Shown here: piece by piece, positions 19,837 through 29,363 of the stretch
Numbering within the stretch: the stretch's first letter is position 1
Layout: each line of letters begins with the position of its first letter
Source: Aequorivita todarodis
GTDB lineage: Bacteria > Bacteroidota > Bacteroidia > Flavobacteriales > Flavobacteriaceae
Assembly: GCF_028561335.1 (NCBI RefSeq)
Contig: NZ_JAQQTG010000019.1
Coordinates: 124,001-188,000, forward strand
DNA: 64,000 nt
Reading direction: 5' to 3'
The notes under the pieces: generated by a model
The model's input: the letters and a program-made list of their open reading frames with translations, nothing else
Told to the model about the DNA's origin: nothing
Database searches by the model: none
Translations under genes and position numbers: made by a program

Positions 19837-20082
19837 ATGCTTACTATCCCTAAAAAATCCTGTTTTGCCGCATCCCTGCTGTTGGTGGGGATGCTGGCTA
19901 TATCCTCTTGTGGCGCCGGAAAGACGGTTGCCTGTATCGATACATCCAAAATAAGTGACGGGCCCTGCACGATGGAATACAACCCCGTTTGTGGCTGTGA
20001 CGGGAAAACGTATGGCAACCCATGTATGGCTGAACGGGCTGGGCTTACTTCTTGGGCTGGTGGGGAGTGTGGGGAGGAATAG
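19837..20082 (+). CDS. Kazal-type domain lipoprotein
   Basis: 81 residues. The lipobox AISSC puts the lipidated Cys at 25. The mature domain has six further cysteines (33, 44, 52, 54, 63, 78) with the Kazal signature YNPVCGCDGKTYGNPC and AGL....GGEC. Kazal domains inhibit serine proteases by presenting a tight loop; in bacteria the target is unknown. Surface or periplasmic exposure is expected, where the disulfides can form. It is the last ordinary gene before the AT-rich defence-like cassette. Confidence 0.85.
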   Translation: MLTIPKKSCFAASLLLVGMLAISSCGAGKTVACIDTSKISDGPCTMEYNPVCGCDGKTYGNPCMAERAGLTSWAGGECGEE

Positions 20083-20248
20083 CAATTTTCATCCTTTTTA
20101 ATTTATACTCCATCAGGCAGTAATCTGGCACCATTTTTTCTTTGGTTGGAATTTCGTTTTTTAGTGATATATATAGGGGATGCGGATTTCGAGGTTTAGT
20201 TGAGAAACTAAAAAATTACTGTTTAAAATCATTAAAAACGATAAAAAA

Positions 20249-20288
20249 GATTGAGTATATTTGAAAGATCATAAAATTTTACTCAATC
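20249..20288. promoter_or_regulatory. 9-bp inverted repeat upstream of the GHKL/methyltransferase operon
   Basis: GATTGAGTA (20249-20257) and TACTCAATC (20280-20288) are perfect inverted arms 22 bases apart, ending 21 bases before the operon start codon. It could be an operator or an mRNA leader hairpin. The surrounding region is strongly AT-rich. Confidence 0.5.
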
Positions 20289-20309
20289 ATTTATTGCTCT
20301 GTACATAAA

Positions 20310-23036
20310 ATGAAAGAAAGAAACTGTTTAATTTTAACACAATATAGAGATGACAGCCAATATAATGACTTTATTGGAAAATTCTATCATTTTCCAGCTA
20401 CGGAAAAGAAGAACTACCTTAAACAGTTTGAAAATCTTCCTATTGAAATAATATATTATGAGCCAGATAAAAGAGGGGCAGGGGAGTTTTATGGATATGG
20501 GAAAATAATAAAACAACCATTTCAAGACAAAAGAGAACCTGACCACTACTTTGTAGAGATAACTGATTTTCGTCCGTTTGCTCAACCAGTCAATTTCAAA
20601 AATGAGAAAGGGGAGATACTCGAAAAGCTTTATAACTCTGATTACTACAATTATAACAATGCTGTCAGGAGAATTAAACCTAAGTTCTTAGACGAGTTAT
20701 GTCTTGATGGAGGAATCGTATTAAATTTCAAAGCCGATGCCCATCTTGTCCAGGTTCTTGGAGAACAACTCATTGCTTCTGAAAGGGTTGGTATTTTAGA
20801 ACTAGTAAAAAACGCTTTTGATGCCGGTGCATCATACTGCAACGTAATAATTGAAAAAGTACCTGGTTTAACAAAAATAACTGAAAGCTTATATCAATAT
20901 AATGAGTATGAAGGTCCTGTAATTGTAATTGAAGATGATGGATCTGGAATGACCAAAGAGCAAATTGAACTAGGTTGGTTAAGGCCTGCATCTACCCTTA
21001 AGACAAACGTTAAACAACGATTAAAGGCCGAAAAAGAAATTGCAATTAAAAAAGGTCAACTTAAAACTTTCGAAAGTTTTGTAAAATTGCTCAAAGTGGA
21101 ACATAAAGGAAGGATACCTTTAGGCGAAAAAGGTGTGGGAAGGTTTGCAACACACAGATTAGGTTCCAAATTAATCCTTAAATCCAAGATCGCAGAAAAT
21201 GACTATGAATTTGTTCTAAAAATTAATTGGGATGATTTTATTTCCCAAAATAATGCTCCAATGGATTTAGATTCAGTCGGATTATCATTAACTCGTCAAC
21301 CAGCTTCAAGGGATTATGGCGTAAAAAACTCAGGAACACAGCTAATTATTTACGGAGGAAGAGAGGGTCTTGAATTGACGGAAGCAGAGATAAATGAAAT
21401 AAACAATACCATTCTCAAATTAAATAGTCCGAATCCACCACCTACTATTAAGGTTCAGGAATTCAAAGTAAATTTCAATTGTATTCAAGTAAAAAATTTA
21501 AGCACTAAATCTTCCTTTAGCCGGGATAATCAAGTTTTCAGGATATATGGTATAGTAGATGAAAAAGGAATTTTTGAATACGATTATTTTTTCACTCCTC
21601 CATACAGTGATAAAATACCGTTAAATGGGTTTGAGAAACGAAATGAAACTGTAGATATAAAAAAGCATAATAAGAAATACTTTCTCAAAGAAATTGACGG
21701 TAGAAGATTGTGGAAGATACCTACTTGTGGCTCCTTTTACATCCATATCGATATTTGGTATAGAGATAATCCTTGGGTTGAAAAAACAGATAGACCATTT
21801 TTAGATTACCTTAAGGAATATGGTGGACTTTCCATTTATCGAGATGGAATAAATGTATATCCGGCAGAATGGGGAGCAAAATATGATTGGTTAGGATTAA
21901 GACAAAGACAAATATCACAAGCAAAGAGAATTTCCTATTATCATATGATAGGAAATATAGAAATAGAACAGTCTAATAATATTGAATTAATTGATAAGAC
22001 TAACAGGGAAGGGATGATTCAAAATACCGCTTTCCATGATTTGGCAGAACTAACAAAAGCGGTTGTCCAGTATGTTGAGTTGGATTATATGGGCAAACGT
22101 GAAGAGTTAACAAAATTGACAGGTGGCTTAATAAGAGAACCCAGAACACTTAACGAATTCTCTAAGCAATCTTCAAAGATTATAGCTAATATCCATGATA
22201 AATACGATGTGGTTTCTGACCCGTATCTTCTTTTATCAGAATTAGGGGATATTAGCGAAAGGAAAAAGAAACTAGTCGACCTCGCAAAATCATCCAAAAA
22301 TCTGCAAAAGAACCTTGAGCTTATGACTGAAGTACAAGATTTGCTAACTGAGCAAGCAGGTTTTGGATTAGGAATTGCTGTGGCACTTCATGAAATCAAT
22401 AAAGTGGCATCTAACTTCTATTATGGAATTATGGAAGTCATTAAAAAAAAGCAATTCGATAAAGTTAAATTAGAAGATTTAAAGAATACCTCGGCAGCTC
22501 TTGAATCCGAATTAATGCGAATAAGCCCATTAAGAGCTTTAAGAAATGAAAAGGACACACTTTTTAGAGTATCTGAATCTATAGAATATGTCAAGTCAAT
22601 TTTTCAATGGCAATTTGACAAAATAGGAATTAACATTTCCTATAATTCAGAAGAAGACTTTCAAGTCATTGCTCGATTTGGGGCGGTAAATCAAATTCTT
22701 ACTAATTTATTTGACAATTCCTGCTACTGGTTAGATGATCCTGATTTATTAAAACAAGAAATTAAATTAGAGCTTGATTCAAAAAACAGAACAATCATTG
22801 TTGCAGATAGCGGACCAGGAATAGCGGAATCGATTTTACCTTATTTATTTCAGCCAGGCTATAGTTTGAAGGAACCCCAGAGCGGTCTAGGCTTATATGT
22901 ATGCAAGCATTATATGAACTTAATGAAAAAACGAGGAGATATTTATTTGGTTAAAGAAAGAGATCGTATAGAGAATTTATCGGGAGCTCAATTTCTACTT
23001 GATTTTTCTAATGTAAAAAGCGAATATGAAGAATAA
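20310..23036 (+). CDS. Putative PUA/EVE-like reader - MORC/Hsp90-type GHKL ATPase - histidine kinase fusion protein
   Basis: A 908-residue cytoplasmic protein. Residues 1-125 resemble the PUA-superfamily modified-base reader found at the N-terminus of some HNH restriction proteins: FYHFPA, IIYYEPDKRGAGEFYGYGKI, HYFVEITDFRPFAQPV, NAVRRI. Residues 150-400 form a GHKL ATPase (N-box ELVKNAFDA 164-172, EDDGSGM 208-214, GEKGVGRFA 272-280) followed by an S5-like segment (LSIYRDGINVYP, DWLGLRQRQ, 507-533). Residues 685-905 look like a histidine kinase: ALHEINK with His694, NQILTNLFDN, ADSGPGI (832-838), SGLGLYVCK (858-866). It overlaps the receiver gene by 11 bases and is first in an operon ending in a cytosine methyltransferase. 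A modification-sensing kinase/ATPase is inference. Confidence 0.8.
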   Translation: MKERNCLILTQYRDDSQYNDFIGKFYHFPATEKKNYLKQFENLPIEIIYYEPDKRGAGEFYGYGKIIKQPFQDKREPDHYFVEITDFRPFAQPVNFKNEKGEILEKLYNSDYYNYNNAVRRIKPKFLDELCLDGGIVLNFKADAHLVQVLGEQLIASERVGILELVKNAFDAGASYCNVIIEKVPGLTKITESLYQYNEYEGPVIVIEDDGSGMTKEQIELGWLRPASTLKTNVKQRLKAEKEIAIKKGQLKTFESFVKLLKVEHKGRIPLGEKGVGRFATHRLGSKLILKSKIAENDYEFVLKINWDDFISQNNAPMDLDSVGLSLTRQPASRDYGVKNSGTQLIIYGGREGLELTEAEINEINNTILKLNSPNPPPTIKVQEFKVNFNCIQVKNLSTKSSFSRDNQVFRIYGIVDEKGIFEYDYFFTPPYSDKIPLNGFEKRNETVDIKKHNKKYFLKEIDGRRLWKIPTCGSFYIHIDIWYRDNPWVEKTDRPFLDYLKEYGGLSIYRDGINVYPAEWGAKYDWLGLRQRQISQAKRISYYHMIGNIEIEQSNNIELIDKTNREGMIQNTAFHDLAELTKAVVQYVELDYMGKREELTKLTGGLIREPRTLNEFSKQSSKIIANIHDKYDVVSDPYLLLSELGDISERKKKLVDLAKSSKNLQKNLELMTEVQDLLTEQAGFGLGIAVALHEINKVASNFYYGIMEVIKKKQFDKVKLEDLKNTSAALESELMRISPLRALRNEKDTLFRVSESIEYVKSIFQWQFDKIGINISYNSEEDFQVIARFGAVNQILTNLFDNSCYWLDDPDLLKQEIKLELDSKNRTIIVADSGPGIAESILPYLFQPGYSLKEPQSGLGLYVCKHYMNLMKKRGDIYLVKERDRIENLSGAQFLLDFSNVKSEYEE

Positions 23037-23925
23037 GCCAATAACAACCGTTTTTATTATTGATGATGAGTTTCCTCGGGACCCTGAATTTAGAGCACGT
23101 GGAATATACAATTCTGCTATCTCAACAAATGACCTATATCATCTCGCAATAAATTGCGATTGGGAAAATCATTTAGGGGAATTACAACAACTTATTAAAG
23201 ATATTGTCTCCAATCCTGTCTGTAAAGAAGAAGGTCATATTGAACTTATGGGTTTTACATCACCAACTCAAGCTCTTTACTCAATTGATCAAGGAAACAT
23301 TCCGAACATTATTATTTATGATTGGGAATATCTGAATGCTCCAAGTTATAGCCTTAATGCAAAGAATTGGTTATTAGAGCTTTTACATACGGCAAGGGAA
23401 GCTTTTATATTTGTTTATTCTAAAAGAAGGGATGAGATTCCTCCATTTTTAAATATAGCAGAATTTGCTAAATTTTCGGAAAGATTCCAATTGTTAATGA
23501 AAGGTGGCAAAATTAAATCATCATTTTCAGCAGAGGAATTTATTCTTCAATATATTATTGGATCTGCTTCAAATAGTGGTAAAATTAAAATAGATGGTAT
23601 ACCTATTGAATTTGCAGCTAACAATTATCTTCTTTCGGCTTCTGACATTCTATATCTTCAAAGAATTTTAGGAAATCAGTACGTACTTGACGAACTGAAT
23701 AATGTTGATTTTTTAATTAATGAAGCTTCAGTAGAAAAAATATTAAATGATTCAGAAGGATTCCTGTACTACAATGAAGAAAAGAAAATTTTAATTAATC
23801 CGAACGAAAATTATGATATGGAAAAATTTCATCCTTATGGAAAATTGAGCTATTTGGAAGTAGTGAAAAAGTTTTCAATTGCTCAACTAGAAGACGCATT
23901 GGAAAGAGGTGTTTTGCCAGTTTAA
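23026..23925 (+). CDS. Atypical response-regulator receiver protein
   Basis: 299 residues. The N-terminus TTVFIIDDEFPRD supplies the acidic pair (Asp13/14) of a receiver, NIIIYDWEYL gives a candidate phosphoacceptor Asp99, and FIFVYSKRR (128-134) the beta-4/5 region. The 30-90 stretch is longer than a usual receiver, and the C-terminal 130 residues match no output domain that I recognise; no helix-turn-helix is seen. Its ATG overlaps the kinase-like gene by 11 bases, so it is very likely the kinase's phosphoacceptor partner. It could regulate or gate an effector by protein contact. Confidence 0.65.
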   Translation: MKNKPITTVFIIDDEFPRDPEFRARGIYNSAISTNDLYHLAINCDWENHLGELQQLIKDIVSNPVCKEEGHIELMGFTSPTQALYSIDQGNIPNIIIYDWEYLNAPSYSLNAKNWLLELLHTAREAFIFVYSKRRDEIPPFLNIAEFAKFSERFQLLMKGGKIKSSFSAEEFILQYIIGSASNSGKIKIDGIPIEFAANNYLLSASDILYLQRILGNQYVLDELNNVDFLINEASVEKILNDSEGFLYYNEEKKILINPNENYDMEKFHPYGKLSYLEVVKKFSIAQLEDALERGVLPV

Positions 23926-23936
23926 CATTATGAATT

Positions 23937-24470
23937 ATGCCAGCATTGACGAAACAACATATTGAAGTTTTAGGACCATTAATTAAGCCTTTTGAGAGAA
24001 GCTCAAAAAAACCTGAGCTTAAAAGAATTAGACCTGGAGAAGGACATAATGAAGAGTTTTTACCATATATACACGATGGTATAAATAACCATAAACCAGA
24101 ACCATATTATGAGCTTACTATTCAGGAGTTAGAAGAAAATAGAATCATGGATGGATTTAAATTATTAGAAAAATGCTATCTCTGGGTAATTGATGATGTA
24201 AGTATTAAGATAATCTGGGAAAAGACATTGAATGTACTACGGGGAGAAGAATTACCTAAAAAAATGTATGTCTGCCATACTAACATTACTGGATGCAAAC
24301 CAGCATATATAGGAGGAGAACTTCATTTCTGTGAAAATGGTAACATTTATGTAAATTTTGCTTCAGATCGTTATGGTCGGCCGGAAACTGAAGAAAAAAA
24401 GCAAATGGCAATTCAATACATGAAAGATTGTGGATATAAAAACGTAATTATGACTAATTATTTAGGTTAA
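23937..24470 (+). CDS. Unknown protein of the GHKL/methyltransferase operon
   Basis: 177 residues, no signal peptide or membrane helix. The N-terminal third is basic and polar (RSSKKPELKRIRPGEGH). The C-terminal half has a compact conserved-looking segment YVCHTNITGCKPAYIGGELH (111-130) then ENGNIYVNFASDRYGRP, with candidate functional residues His114, Glu128, Arg145 and Tyr146. This reminds me weakly of a H-[ST]-x-G-x-A-GE ... SGHY pattern seen in some toxin and effector domains, but the match is not firm. It sits 11 bases after the receiver gene and overlaps the methyltransferase start by one base. As the only uncharacterised member it is the best candidate effector. Confidence 0.6.
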   Translation: MPALTKQHIEVLGPLIKPFERSSKKPELKRIRPGEGHNEEFLPYIHDGINNHKPEPYYELTIQELEENRIMDGFKLLEKCYLWVIDDVSIKIIWEKTLNVLRGEELPKKMYVCHTNITGCKPAYIGGELHFCENGNIYVNFASDRYGRPETEEKKQMAIQYMKDCGYKNVIMTNYLG

Positions 24471-25495
24471 TGGAACTGCTTTCAATCGACATATTTAGTG
24501 GTGTAGGAGGTCTAACAGAAGGAATGCACCAAGCTAATTTCAAAACAGTACTTGCTTTGGAAATTGATGAATTAGCATCTAAAGCCTATCAGTTAAATCA
24601 TTCGGATACTACCATAATTACAAAAGATATTCGTAAGGTTTCAATTGCTGAAATCAAAAGAAAGTTAGATGGGAAGATAATTCATTTGCTTGCAGGTTGC
24701 CCACCATGTCAAGGGTTTTCCTCTATTCGTAGACTAAACAGAACTACACCGGTTAATGATGAACGAAATAACCTTATAATGGAATATGTGAGGTTAGTAA
24801 AAGCTTTAAAGCCTTATACTATCATGATGGAGAATGTGCCTGGCCTTGTTGAATATGATTTGTTTAAAAAAGCAATTAAAATACTTAATGAAGAGCTAAA
24901 TTATGAGATTGATTATAAAGTTGTAAATGTGAAAGATTATGGTGTTCCACAAAGCCGCCGAAGATTGGTTTTAGTTGGTTCTCGTTTAGGAAAAATAAAG
25001 GTAGCAGAACCTAATGCCAAAAAAATGACAGTAAAAGATGTTATTGGAAGTCTTGCGAATCCTGAAAAATCTAATGATGCATTACATAAAATTTTTCCCA
25101 AGCATACTCCAAAAGTTCAAAAAAGAATTGCCTTAACACCAAAAGACGGAGGAAGTAGAAAAGACCTACCAAAAGAATACATACTTGAATGCCACAAAGC
25201 CGATAATGTTGGTTTTAATGATGTATATGGCAGATTGAGATGGGATAATTATTCTACAACAATAACGGGAGGTTGTTTAAATCCTTCTAAGGGACGTTTT
25301 TTACATCCAGAACAGAATCGTAATATTTCAGCTCGTGAGGCGTCCCTACTACAATCTTTTCCGTCAGATTATATTTTTCCTATCGACGCTCCAGTTTCAA
25401 AAATAGCTTTAATGATAGGAAATGCTTTGCCACCAAAGTTTAGTTATTATCAATCATTGAATATTCGTGAGCATCTGGAAAATCATTTAAAATAA
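24470..25495 (+). CDS. DNA (cytosine-5)-methyltransferase
   Basis: 341 residues with all key C5-methyltransferase motifs: FSGVGG (9-14, AdoMet), PPCQGFSS with catalytic Cys80, ENV (121-123), QSRRR (161-165), target-side STTITGG (262-268), REASLLQSFP (289-298) and GNALPP (317-322). It transfers a methyl group to a cytosine in a DNA site that cannot be read from the sequence. The variable region is short, as in small type II orphan or restriction-modification enzymes. The start overlaps the preceding stop by one base. No restriction nuclease is recognisable nearby. Base composition matches the three preceding genes and not the flanks. Confidence 0.93.
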   Translation: MELLSIDIFSGVGGLTEGMHQANFKTVLALEIDELASKAYQLNHSDTTIITKDIRKVSIAEIKRKLDGKIIHLLAGCPPCQGFSSIRRLNRTTPVNDERNNLIMEYVRLVKALKPYTIMMENVPGLVEYDLFKKAIKILNEELNYEIDYKVVNVKDYGVPQSRRRLVLVGSRLGKIKVAEPNAKKMTVKDVIGSLANPEKSNDALHKIFPKHTPKVQKRIALTPKDGGSRKDLPKEYILECHKADNVGFNDVYGRLRWDNYSTTITGGCLNPSKGRFLHPEQNRNISAREASLLQSFPSDYIFPIDAPVSKIALMIGNALPPKFSYYQSLNIREHLENHLK

Positions 25496-25497
25496 AA

Positions 25498-25872
25498 TTG
25501 ATATTTAAGAACAATCCCACCACCCACCTCATCACCACAGTCTGGCTAATAAACGGCCTTTTCTGCAAAGTCCTAAACCTAGTCCCCCGCCACCAAGAAA
25601 TAGTAGAAACCATTTTGCATTTGGAAAACGGAAGGGCGTTAACCATCGCCATCGGCCTTGCCGAAACGGGTATGGCCTTTTGGATAGTCAGTGGGTTTCG
25701 CAGTAGGCTTAATGCCATCCTTCAAATTGTAGTAATTGCAATTATGAACATCTTGGAGTCTATTTACGCACCAGACCTCTTGCTGTGGGGAAGATGGAAT
25801 GGCGTGTTTGCATTCCTGTTTATTTTAGTAATTTACGCACACGAATTCCACCTTAAAAAACGGGCGCACTGA
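25498..25872 (+). CDS. DoxX-like family membrane protein
   Basis: 124 residues with four hydrophobic helices and the family's VWLINGLFCKVLNLVPRHQ start region, then GRALTIAIGLAETGMAFW and ILESIYAPDLLLWGRWNG. It is an inner-membrane protein of unknown activity. The apparent start is TTG (25498), two bases after the methyltransferase stop, and base composition changes sharply here, so the first codons may have been altered at an insertion junction. It leads a run of four closely packed plus-strand genes (25498-27748). Confidence 0.75.
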   Translation: MIFKNNPTTHLITTVWLINGLFCKVLNLVPRHQEIVETILHLENGRALTIAIGLAETGMAFWIVSGFRSRLNAILQIVVIAIMNILESIYAPDLLLWGRWNGVFAFLFILVIYAHEFHLKKRAH

Positions 25873-27780: not shown

Positions 27781-27813
27781 AAACCTAACAGGTCTTGGAG
27801 ACCTGTTAGGTTT
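27781..27813. terminator. Perfect palindrome, probable terminator
   Basis: A 14-bp stem (27781-27794 with 27800-27813, arm AAACCTAACAGGTC) and a 5-base loop, 33 bases after the preceding gene. The right arm ends in TTTT, fitting a factor-independent terminator. Confidence 0.7.
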
Positions 27814-27899
27814 TGCCGTATGGATTATTTCCATTTAACAGGAAATATTCCAAATATTTAAAATTCTTTCCCTACATTTGTTTTCCCAGCAAACAAAAA

Positions 27900-29363
27900 A
27901 TGCACTCACAACTTTTCGCAATTATAGACGTAGAAACCACTGGCGGCGGCATTGCCGGCAATCGTATTACGGAAATCTGTATCGCCCTTTTGAAGGATGG
28001 CGAAGTGGTGGATAAATACACCACGCTCGTAAACCCTGAGCGGGACATTCCTCAGCATATTACGGCTTTAACTGGTATTGACAATGAAATGGTTGCCGAT
28101 GCGCCATGTTTTTTTGAAGTTGCAGAAAAAATAGAAGAATTCACTAAAGACGCTGTGTTTGTGGCGCACAACGTGAGCTTTGACTATAATGTAATCCGCG
28201 GCGAGTTTCGGCTTTTGGGGCAACACTACAACCGAAAAAAACTCTGCACCGTCCGGCTTTCGCGCAAATTGATTCCCGGACATTTGTCTTATAGTTTGGG
28301 AAGGCTTTGCAGTACCATAAACATTCCGCACCTCAACCGCCACCGTGCAGAGGGCGATGTGGATGCCACGGTAATCCTCTTTCAACGCTTGCTTTCGTTG
28401 GACGAAGATTTCAGCACTATTAATTCCTTTTTGAATCCACGTTCCAAACAGGCTACGCTTCCCCCGCACATCCCAACGGAACAGATTAACGAACTGCCCG
28501 AGGAAGCTGGTATCTATTTATTCAAAAACCAAAAACACCAAGTGATTTATGCCGGAAAGGCAAAGAACATCAAAAAGCGGGTTTTGAGCCATTTTTATGA
28601 TAAAAAGACAAAGGAATACCAGCTTGGGCAGGAAACGCATTTTATAGATTACGAACTTACAGGAAATGAATTATTGGCGCTGTTAGTTGAATCGGAACAC
28701 ATTCGGAAACATTACCCAAAATACAATCGGGCTCAGAAATGGCCTGCTACAACCTATCAAATAATCAGCTATATAAACCAGCGCGGCATCGTCCAACTTG
28801 CATTGGGAAAAACCAAGGTGCTGCACGATTCGGTGGGCACGTTTTACAACAAAACGGAAGCGATTGAGAAGTTGGAGGAAATATGCGAGACTTTTAAACT
28901 ATGTCCGCGTTTTTGCACCTTGCAGAGCACTTCTGAAAAATGCTCCCACTACCGAATCAAAAACTGTGAGGGCATTTGCGAAGGCACGGAAACTGTGGAA
29001 AGCTACAATCTAAAAGTGGAGGCTGCTATCCAAGCTTTAAAGGAAAACAAACAGAGTTTTGCCATTCAAGGAAAAGGAAGGACAAAGGGCGAAATAGCTT
29101 TTGCATTGGTTGCTGATGGGCAATACAAAGGTTTTGGTTTTTTTGACCAGAGCGAAGCCATTTGCAATATTGAAGATTATGAACCCTTTTTAAATTTGCA
29201 GCCAGCCAGTTATCATACGCACGCAATTATCCGAAGTCATCTTAAAAAGCATGGGGAGCGGAATGTGGTTTATTTTGAAGAACCCATTCGGCTCGCAACG
29301 CATAGAATTAAAGCTATTAAGAAAAGCTCACCGAAAGACAATATTTTCTCTGAATGGAGATGA
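27900..29363 (+). CDS. DEDDh exonuclease - GIY-YIG nuclease fusion
   Basis: 487 residues from ATG 27900. Residues 5-170 form a DnaQ-like exonuclease: FAIIDVETTGG (Exo I Asp/Glu), VFVAHNVSFDYNV (Exo II) and HRAEGDVDATVIL (Exo III His/Asp). Residues about 195-275 are a GIY-YIG nuclease as in UvrC/Cho: EEAGIYLFKNQKHQVIYAGKAK split over the motif, then KRVLSH and ESEHIRKHYPKYN with the catalytic Glu. The rest has a four-Cys stretch (CETFKLCPRFC, CSHYRIKNCEGIC). Such fusions act in nucleotide excision or related DNA repair. It is flanked by palindromes and is not in an operon. Confidence 0.88.
   Translation: MHSQLFAIIDVETTGGGIAGNRITEICIALLKDGEVVDKYTTLVNPERDIPQHITALTGIDNEMVADAPCFFEVAEKIEEFTKDAVFVAHNVSFDYNVIRGEFRLLGQHYNRKKLCTVRLSRKLIPGHLSYSLGRLCSTINIPHLNRHRAEGDVDATVILFQRLLSLDEDFSTINSFLNPRSKQATLPPHIPTEQINELPEEAGIYLFKNQKHQVIYAGKAKNIKKRVLSHFYDKKTKEYQLGQETHFIDYELTGNELLALLVESEHIRKHYPKYNRAQKWPATTYQIISYINQRGIVQLALGKTKVLHDSVGTFYNKTEAIEKLEEICETFKLCPRFCTLQSTSEKCSHYRIKNCEGICEGTETVESYNLKVEAAIQALKENKQSFAIQGKGRTKGEIAFALVADGQYKGFGFFDQSEAICNIEDYEPFLNLQPASYHTHAIIRSHLKKHGERNVVYFEEPIRLATHRIKAIKKSSPKDNIFSEWR

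Follow-up and report, generated by a model that had tools for sequence, protein, structure and literature searches.

What do a histidine kinase fused to a putative DNA-modification reader, a divergent receiver and a cytosine methyltransferase do together in a set of genes that has no cognate nuclease? The question is raised by positions 20310–25495 of a 64,000-nucleotide stretch of Aequorivita todarodis DNA (contig NZ_JAQQTG010000019.1; hereafter the window), where four genes, g1 to g4, form a compact cassette (Table 1). An earlier note had proposed that these genes sense methylation, signal by a His–Asp relay and mark self DNA. We read the cassette, with slightly better than even confidence, as a horizontally acquired accessory of a C5-methyltransferase restriction-modification (R-M) system, in which DNA modification would be read and relayed by His–Asp transfer. 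We favor this reading because of the domains and fold of g1, the invariant His and Asp residues, the homologies of the receiver and the reader, the recurrent company of methyltransferase, Vsr and endonuclease genes, and the published linkage of such genes. Below, fetched loci carry L-numbers and genomes G-numbers, G000 being the cassette's own genome.

Table 1. Cassette genes, g1 domains and the probable acquired segment, in window positions (ORF, open reading frame).
Feature	Positions	Strand	Basis
g1, hybrid sensor kinase, 908 aa	20310–23036	+	ORF, Pfam, structure model
g1 residues 1–135, putative DNA-modification reader	20310–20714	+	Homologous to N-terminal part of HNH_2/NOV_C proteins
g1 residues 141–605, modeled MORC/MutL/Hsp90-type GHKL + S5 ATPase module	20730–22124	+	E164, N168, D209xGxG, GxKGxG intact
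g1 residues 683–905, modeled histidine-kinase DHp helix (His694-Glu695) + CA domain	22356–23024	+	N799, N803, D833xGxG, GxGL
g2, predicted divergent receiver protein, 299 aa	23026–23925	+	hhalign to relatives' partners; 11-base overlap with g1
g3, 177 aa, without known family	23937–24470	+	ORF; 11-base gap after g2
g4, C5-cytosine DNA methyltransferase, 341 aa	24470–25495	+	PF00145; 1-base overlap with g3
Probable acquired segment, approximate extent	20072–25525		DNA similarity break versus same-genus genomes

Kinase, receiver and methyltransferase

In the structure model, g1 has a GHKL-S5 ATPase of the MORC/MutL/Hsp90 kind and, C-terminal to it, a histidine-kinase core. Pfam placed HATPase_c_3 at residues 161–316 (E 1e-13) and HATPase_c at residues 793–884 (E 8e-16); GHKL motifs I–IV were intact and an S5 domain was present. 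The Pfam matches and the fold model bear out the two GHKL modules and the kinase core that had been proposed for g1. Viral contigs gave 106 g1 matches, of which the best 80 were used, and 79 of these loci hold a g1 ORF (L113 has none). The fold model was built on 37 sequences, comprising 35 of the 79 viral ORFs, the window protein and its relative from L033; the aligner's list for this model covers residues 141–605 and 685–904 and carries nothing on the fold of residues 1–135. His694 was invariant in all 37 aligned proteins, and 36 of them had E or D at position 695. The GHKL part of g1 weakly matched NF050001 (residues 142–225, E 2e-4, far under the cut-off), while PDLC03419 matched 30 of the 37 aligned proteins, the window g1 excepted. 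No nuclease domain was recognized in g1.

By profile comparison, g2 is a divergent receiver with Asp99 as the candidate phospho-acceptor. It aligned with the receiver part of the g1 partners in L065 and L066 (hhalign probability 97.7, E 2e-12), and with an alignment of 67 downstream partners of relatives at E 2.8e-5 (probability 74). The receiver Asp column was invariant in that alignment (67/67), and 17 of its members matched Response_reg. The 67 were taken from 69 downstream ORFs; L075 and L139 were omitted because they equal L074 and L137 in length and position. The receiver-type residues of g2 are D13, D14, D99 and S132, with K159 assigned by position, and D13, D14 and D99 were kept in all four orthologues. 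The L065/L066 alignment and the invariant Asp column uphold the receiver partner that had been called from the sequence. Neither g2 nor g3 matched a Pfam family above the cut-off or a PADLOC family at E 1; PDB sequence searches with both, and a plasmid search with g2, were without result. The partners in L065 (7603–9171) and L066 (7691–9265) are 522–524 residues long and have a long C-terminal part that is not in g2.

The identification of g4 as a cytosine methyltransferase is confirmed by its match to DNA_methylase PF00145 (E 7e-59); it also matched PADLOC MTase_II (E 8e-85). The PCQ, ENV and QxRxR motifs can be seen in its translation, and its identity to the corresponding enzymes of the three closest cassettes is 65–75%.

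The putative reader domain, its clade and the probable origin of the cassette

Residues 1–135 of g1 aligned with the N-termini of HNH_2 and NOV_C proteins (hhalign probability 99.1, E 7e-19). The HNH_2 homologues, of ≈303 residues, lie on Rhizobium and Sinorhizobium plasmids and the NOV_C homologue in a same-family genome; tblastn with the domain also found matches in Rhizobium/Sinorhizobium genes labeled "HNH endonuclease". The HNH part of the Rhizobium HNH_2 protein matches PDB entry 6yex (E 2e-4), which we take to be VcaM4I. In the endonuclease VcaM4I (PMC7897488), the corresponding position is taken by an EVE domain that binds modified cytosine. Because of the homology to the HNH_2 N-termini and the match of the HNH part to 6yex, a modified-DNA reader is our best guess for residues 1–135. 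Of the modification-sensing N-terminal domain put forward in the earlier note, then, the homology to the sensor part of an endonuclease stands, and the sensing stays putative. The domain was beta-rich in the structure model, with block values of the predicted local distance difference test (pLDDT) of 54–81, and a PDB sequence search with the domain and the NOV_C protein gave no convincing match.

Most homologues of g1 are without this domain: only 2 of the best 80 viral-contig matches (106 found) extend into residues 1–135. In a tree of 46 proteins, based on the shared core, a branch with support 100/100 separates the six reader-bearing proteins from the rest. At E 0.001 the domain was found nowhere else in one class sample (0 of 394 other genomes) and in 4 of 394 other genomes in one phylum sample, one of the four being weak (E 3e-4). 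In G059, a same-family genome of another sample, it occurs in a NOV_C protein (L050) without a kinase. What looks new is the fusion of the sensor domain of HNH_2/NOV_C proteins to a kinase, seen in a single well-supported clade with six members; no such fusion was met in the literature searched, from which most subscription papers were missing.

Six complete loci of this clade were compared (window, L033, L059, L060, L065 and L066; L061 was excluded because its contig ends inside g1), and g3 is present in four of them. That g3 accompanies the Bacteroidota members of the clade also looks new. Its conserved pattern is CHTNxTG ... GGE ... N..S.R.G, and it was found in 1 of the 394 genomes of a class sample (E 0.001). 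Homologues occur twice elsewhere, without a g1 relative in the fetched stretch: in L049 (9068–9550) beside a 187-residue ORF of no known kind, and in L051 (9603–10247), on a Rhizobium plasmid, beside an XRE/IrrE-type gene. Matches of g3 in PHROGs were weak and to unknown-function families only (E 0.09 or worse), a structure model from two sequences was unusable (pLDDT 41), and profile comparison revealed no relationship to the longer L065/L066 receivers (E 0.25) or to the 67 partners (E 0.32). Scans of viral contigs with g1 alone, and with the g2 and g3 alignments, were without result. On the sample counts for the reader domain (0/394 and 4/394) and g3 (1/394), we rejected the possibility that these are housekeeping genes; the kinase-free NOV_C protein of G059 is a point against that rejection.

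Sequence composition and DNA similarity indicate that the cassette was most likely acquired horizontally. It is AT-rich, with a GC fraction of 0.33 versus 0.41 for the window and 0.38 for the lowest equal-length segment outside it (200-base steps), and third-position GC is 0.20–0.26 in its four genes versus 0.43–0.56 in ten flanking ORFs. The coordinates and these figures agree with the four genes, the overlaps and gap, and the AT-richness against both flanks described in the earlier note. DNA similarity to the same-genus genome G024 stops at 20071 and restarts at 25526, on two different G024 contigs, and similarity to three further same-genus genomes stops at 20048. An empty site was sought and none could be shown, G024, the one informative relative, having the flanks on different contigs. 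Of the relatives found, one in Pedobacter is nearest (77%); 98 further genomes of the genus, family and order gave another match of at best 62 bits, against 2065. The three neighbors scanned with Pfam were ordinary, with glyoxalase-family and Kazal-domain proteins upstream and a DoxX-like protein downstream.

Directly upstream of g1 (20249–20288) is a nine-base inverted repeat, with a loop of 22, around TATATTTG, which we take to fit the Bacteroidota -7 consensus. Taking the repeat for an operator-like element led to no result: an equally long one occurred in 80 of 500 random samples. Five more upstream regions were without it, although two of them carry nine-base repeats of a different kind.

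Patchy distribution and AT-richness also bear on the proposal that the cassette is an epigenetic regulator of host genes, in which g1 and g2 would tune methylation by g4 according to DNA state or nucleotide level. The two-component make-up suits such a role, and Bellieny-Rabelo et al. (PMC8011034) speculated about nucleoside triphosphate (NTP) sensing and control of R-M systems for a related arrangement. However, a core regulator would not be expected to look like this, and Pfam found no DNA-binding family in g2; we regard the proposal as quite improbable.

Gene company, the missing nuclease and competing explanations

All six complete loci contain a methyltransferase and a receiver, five of the six contain Vsr (the window does not), and HNH_2 and HaeII genes are found in one locus each. 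In L059, g1, g2, g3, methyltransferase and Vsr are contiguous; L060 has the same order, with Vsr convergent and an HNH_2 gene upstream. In L033, from Pedobacter panaciterrae (identity 77% for g1, 60% for g2 and 52% for g3), g3 is separated from the methyltransferase by two ORFs judged by eye, one of them helicase-like, and by a Fic gene; Vsr comes after the methyltransferase. The order in L065 is methyltransferase, HaeII enzyme, Vsr, g1 (51% identical), partner and second methyltransferase. L066, on a phage contig, has Vsr, g1 (38% identical), partner and methyltransferase, flanked by the gene for a head protein and, at the other end, by that for the terminase large subunit. A reverse-transcriptase ORF (L065 10374–11477; phrog_1423, E 3e-117) adjoins the reader-bearing, HaeII-R-M-carrying cassette of L065.

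No cognate restriction nuclease was found by Pfam in the window cassette or in the three neighbors scanned. In the whole of G000, where further nuclease families were not sought, there was a single Vsr match, on another contig, and no HNH_2 match. This Vsr belongs to a separate R-M-like set on contig C46 at 63.4–66 kb (L149), made up of a C5-methyltransferase, a 263-residue ORF and Vsr; the genome has a third C5-methyltransferase on contig C10. By eye, an ORF at window positions 27813–29363 combines an exonuclease of DnaQ type with a GIY-YIG nuclease resembling UvrC; since it falls in native flanking DNA, which G024 has in common at 86% DNA identity, we left it out of the cassette. Among the complete loci of the clade, only the window copy lacks a nuclease, as Vsr is present in each of the other five. 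The statement in the earlier note that no nuclease is visible is thus correct for the window cassette and does not extend to its relatives, which carry Vsr, HNH_2 or HaeII.

One explanation of this absence is that the cassette is an R-M remnant, which has lost its nuclease and left a solitary methyltransferase and an idle sensor. It would account for Vsr being in the five other complete loci and not here, and it agrees with what the rest of the genome shows: the sole Vsr match sits on a different contig, paired with a methyltransferase of its own, and HNH_2 has no match. All four ORFs are full-length, however, and neither g1 nor g2 has lost any of the catalytic residues examined, which argues for use, and we consider a remnant unlikely.

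Alternatively, in line with the earlier note, the cassette may be a nuclease-free phage defense. Infection would then change the modification that g1 detects, the relay would trigger a g2/g3 effector that halts the cell, and g4 would mark self. The presence of reader, relay and methyltransferase without a nuclease is what such a system would look like; a polar-residue cluster is kept in g3, and homologues lie on viral contigs, one of them between terminase and head genes. But the Vsr gene in 5/5 other complete clade loci, the lack of g3 in two of the six, and the failure of g2 and g3 to match Pfam or PADLOC families, with weak unknown-function PHROGs for g3, make this explanation unlikely, about as much as a remnant.

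Beyond the clade, the neighbors of g1 relatives were counted on viral contigs, where flanks were at most 5 kb and some were cut, using C5-methyltransferase and Vsr profiles built from first BLAST hits. A same-strand ORF directly follows g1 in 69 of the 79 loci, an undercount by at least one, as the L065 partner was missed through a long alternative start and found by BLAST. Among plasmids, 31 of 94 matching records cover at least 80% of g1; of five plasmid loci opened, two have methyltransferase and Vsr close by, one has a methyltransferase only and one has both farther away. In eight genus-to-order relatives, chosen from the best matches reaching the N-terminal ATPase and with flanks opened, a C5-methyltransferase adjoins g1 in four and is one gene off in a fifth. 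One of the remaining three, L048 (5087–10576), from a same-genus genome, has a kinase relative and its downstream ORF; their neighbors are an N6-methyltransferase of Eco57I type and an HNH gene, in place of a C5-methyltransferase.

Several of these results weigh against an R-M accessory. A C5-methyltransferase ORF was present in 37 of the 79 viral-contig loci and a Vsr ORF in 13, and the fifth plasmid locus has neither, so the kinase pair is not always accompanied by them. No output domain was recognized in g2 and no fold in g3. Restriction by the window copy, which has no cassette nuclease, is unsupported.

If the cassette nevertheless serves as an R-M accessory, as we favor, the N-terminal domain of g1 and the MORC-like clamp would examine DNA for modification, and the clamp dimer would close on ATP and switch the histidine-kinase core. 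His694 would then be phosphorylated and the phosphate passed to Asp99 of g2, the C-terminal part of which, perhaps with g3, would control how active, or how strongly expressed, the methyltransferase and the cognate nuclease are. In relatives, the cutting step would most simply be assigned to the Vsr, HNH_2 or HaeII neighbors, where Vsr may serve restriction rather than mismatch repair. Since the window cassette is without a cognate nuclease gene, this copy probably methylates and signals and does not cut, unless it has an effector yet unrecognized. A bolder proposal, which we hold to be doubtful, is that of a self/non-self DNA alarm: reader and MORC clamp, on one polypeptide, would turn DNA modification into His–Asp signaling that switches restriction by Vsr or HNH partners, replaced here by a non-nuclease output of g2 and g3.

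Were the chain of events above correct, two-component signaling would be driven directly by the modification state of DNA, a MORC-type clamp would have a measurable output, phosphotransfer, in a bacterial setting, and a function would be given to a kind of system predicted from genomes in 2021 (PMC8011034). If the anatomy alone holds, the subfamily is still useful, since its reader is built in and the question of what is sensed becomes testable.

Comparison with known systems

Detocs is a defense-setting pair of histidine kinase and receiver with a phosphatase effector. The cassette would resemble it in having a kinase and a receiver, but no phosphatase effector was seen. PADLOC gave no match for g1–g3, in a release whose inclusion of Detocs was not checked. 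The Type II enzymes with a GHKL domain (BbrUII/HgiDII; PADLOC REase_II) are weakly alike in their GHKL part, whereas g1 has no recognized nuclease domain. Compared with Type II restriction-modification in general, the cassette has the modification methyltransferase but not the cognate nuclease in the locus. EVE-HNH endonucleases such as VcaM4I (PMC7897488) are comparable in that the N-terminal domain of g1 has homologues in HNH_2 proteins built to a like plan and of about the same length; in g1, however, the putative sensor feeds a kinase rather than a nuclease, and the likeness is one of sequence.

MORC and paraMORC GHKL-S5 ATPases with methyltransferase and Vsr neighborhoods were described by Iyer, Abhiman and Aravind in 2008 (PMC2292703), a paper in which the word "receiver" does not appear. 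The GHKL and S5 module of g1, its neighborhood of methyltransferase and, in relatives, Vsr, and its patchy distribution are all similar, but g1 has, in addition, a C-terminal histidine-kinase core and a receiver partner.

The closest likeness is to the HEF_HK (PF19191) and Response_reg_2 (PF19192) pair of Bellieny-Rabelo et al. (PMC8011034). A soluble kinase with HATPase_c_3, DHp and HATPase_c, beside a divergent receiver, was reported there in 2021 from 628 strains, with a kinase–receiver linkage of 91.6% over 644 regions, R-M enrichment, and C5-methyltransferases, Vsr and HNH_2 among the neighbors; the authors proposed an origin from paraMORCs. As whole words, PUA, EVE and phage are not found in the main text. 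The cassette likewise has HATPase_c_3 on the N-terminal side, HATPase_c at the C-terminus, a divergent receiver and a C5-methyltransferase, and it keeps the DHp His with its acidic residue and the receiver Asp with its acidic pair. Since this core combination had already been published, the main novelty claim of the earlier note, a defense type not described in this exact form, fails. At E 1, PF19191 matched neither the window g1 nor any of five relatives; at E 0.01 it matched 1 of the 37 aligned proteins, and separately L041 gave a match at E 0.0075, under the cut-off. PF19192 matched neither the window g2 nor any of five relatives at E 1, and none of the 67 downstream partners at E 0.01. By this profile test g1 and g2 are outside both named families, with which they share the plan. 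The window differs from that pair by the additional N-terminal reader domain, by g3 between g2 and g4, and by having no nuclease. At its core, the cassette, here in a copy without a nuclease, is a known R-M-linked two-component-like plan, of which it represents a new, reader-fused and g3-bearing subfamily.

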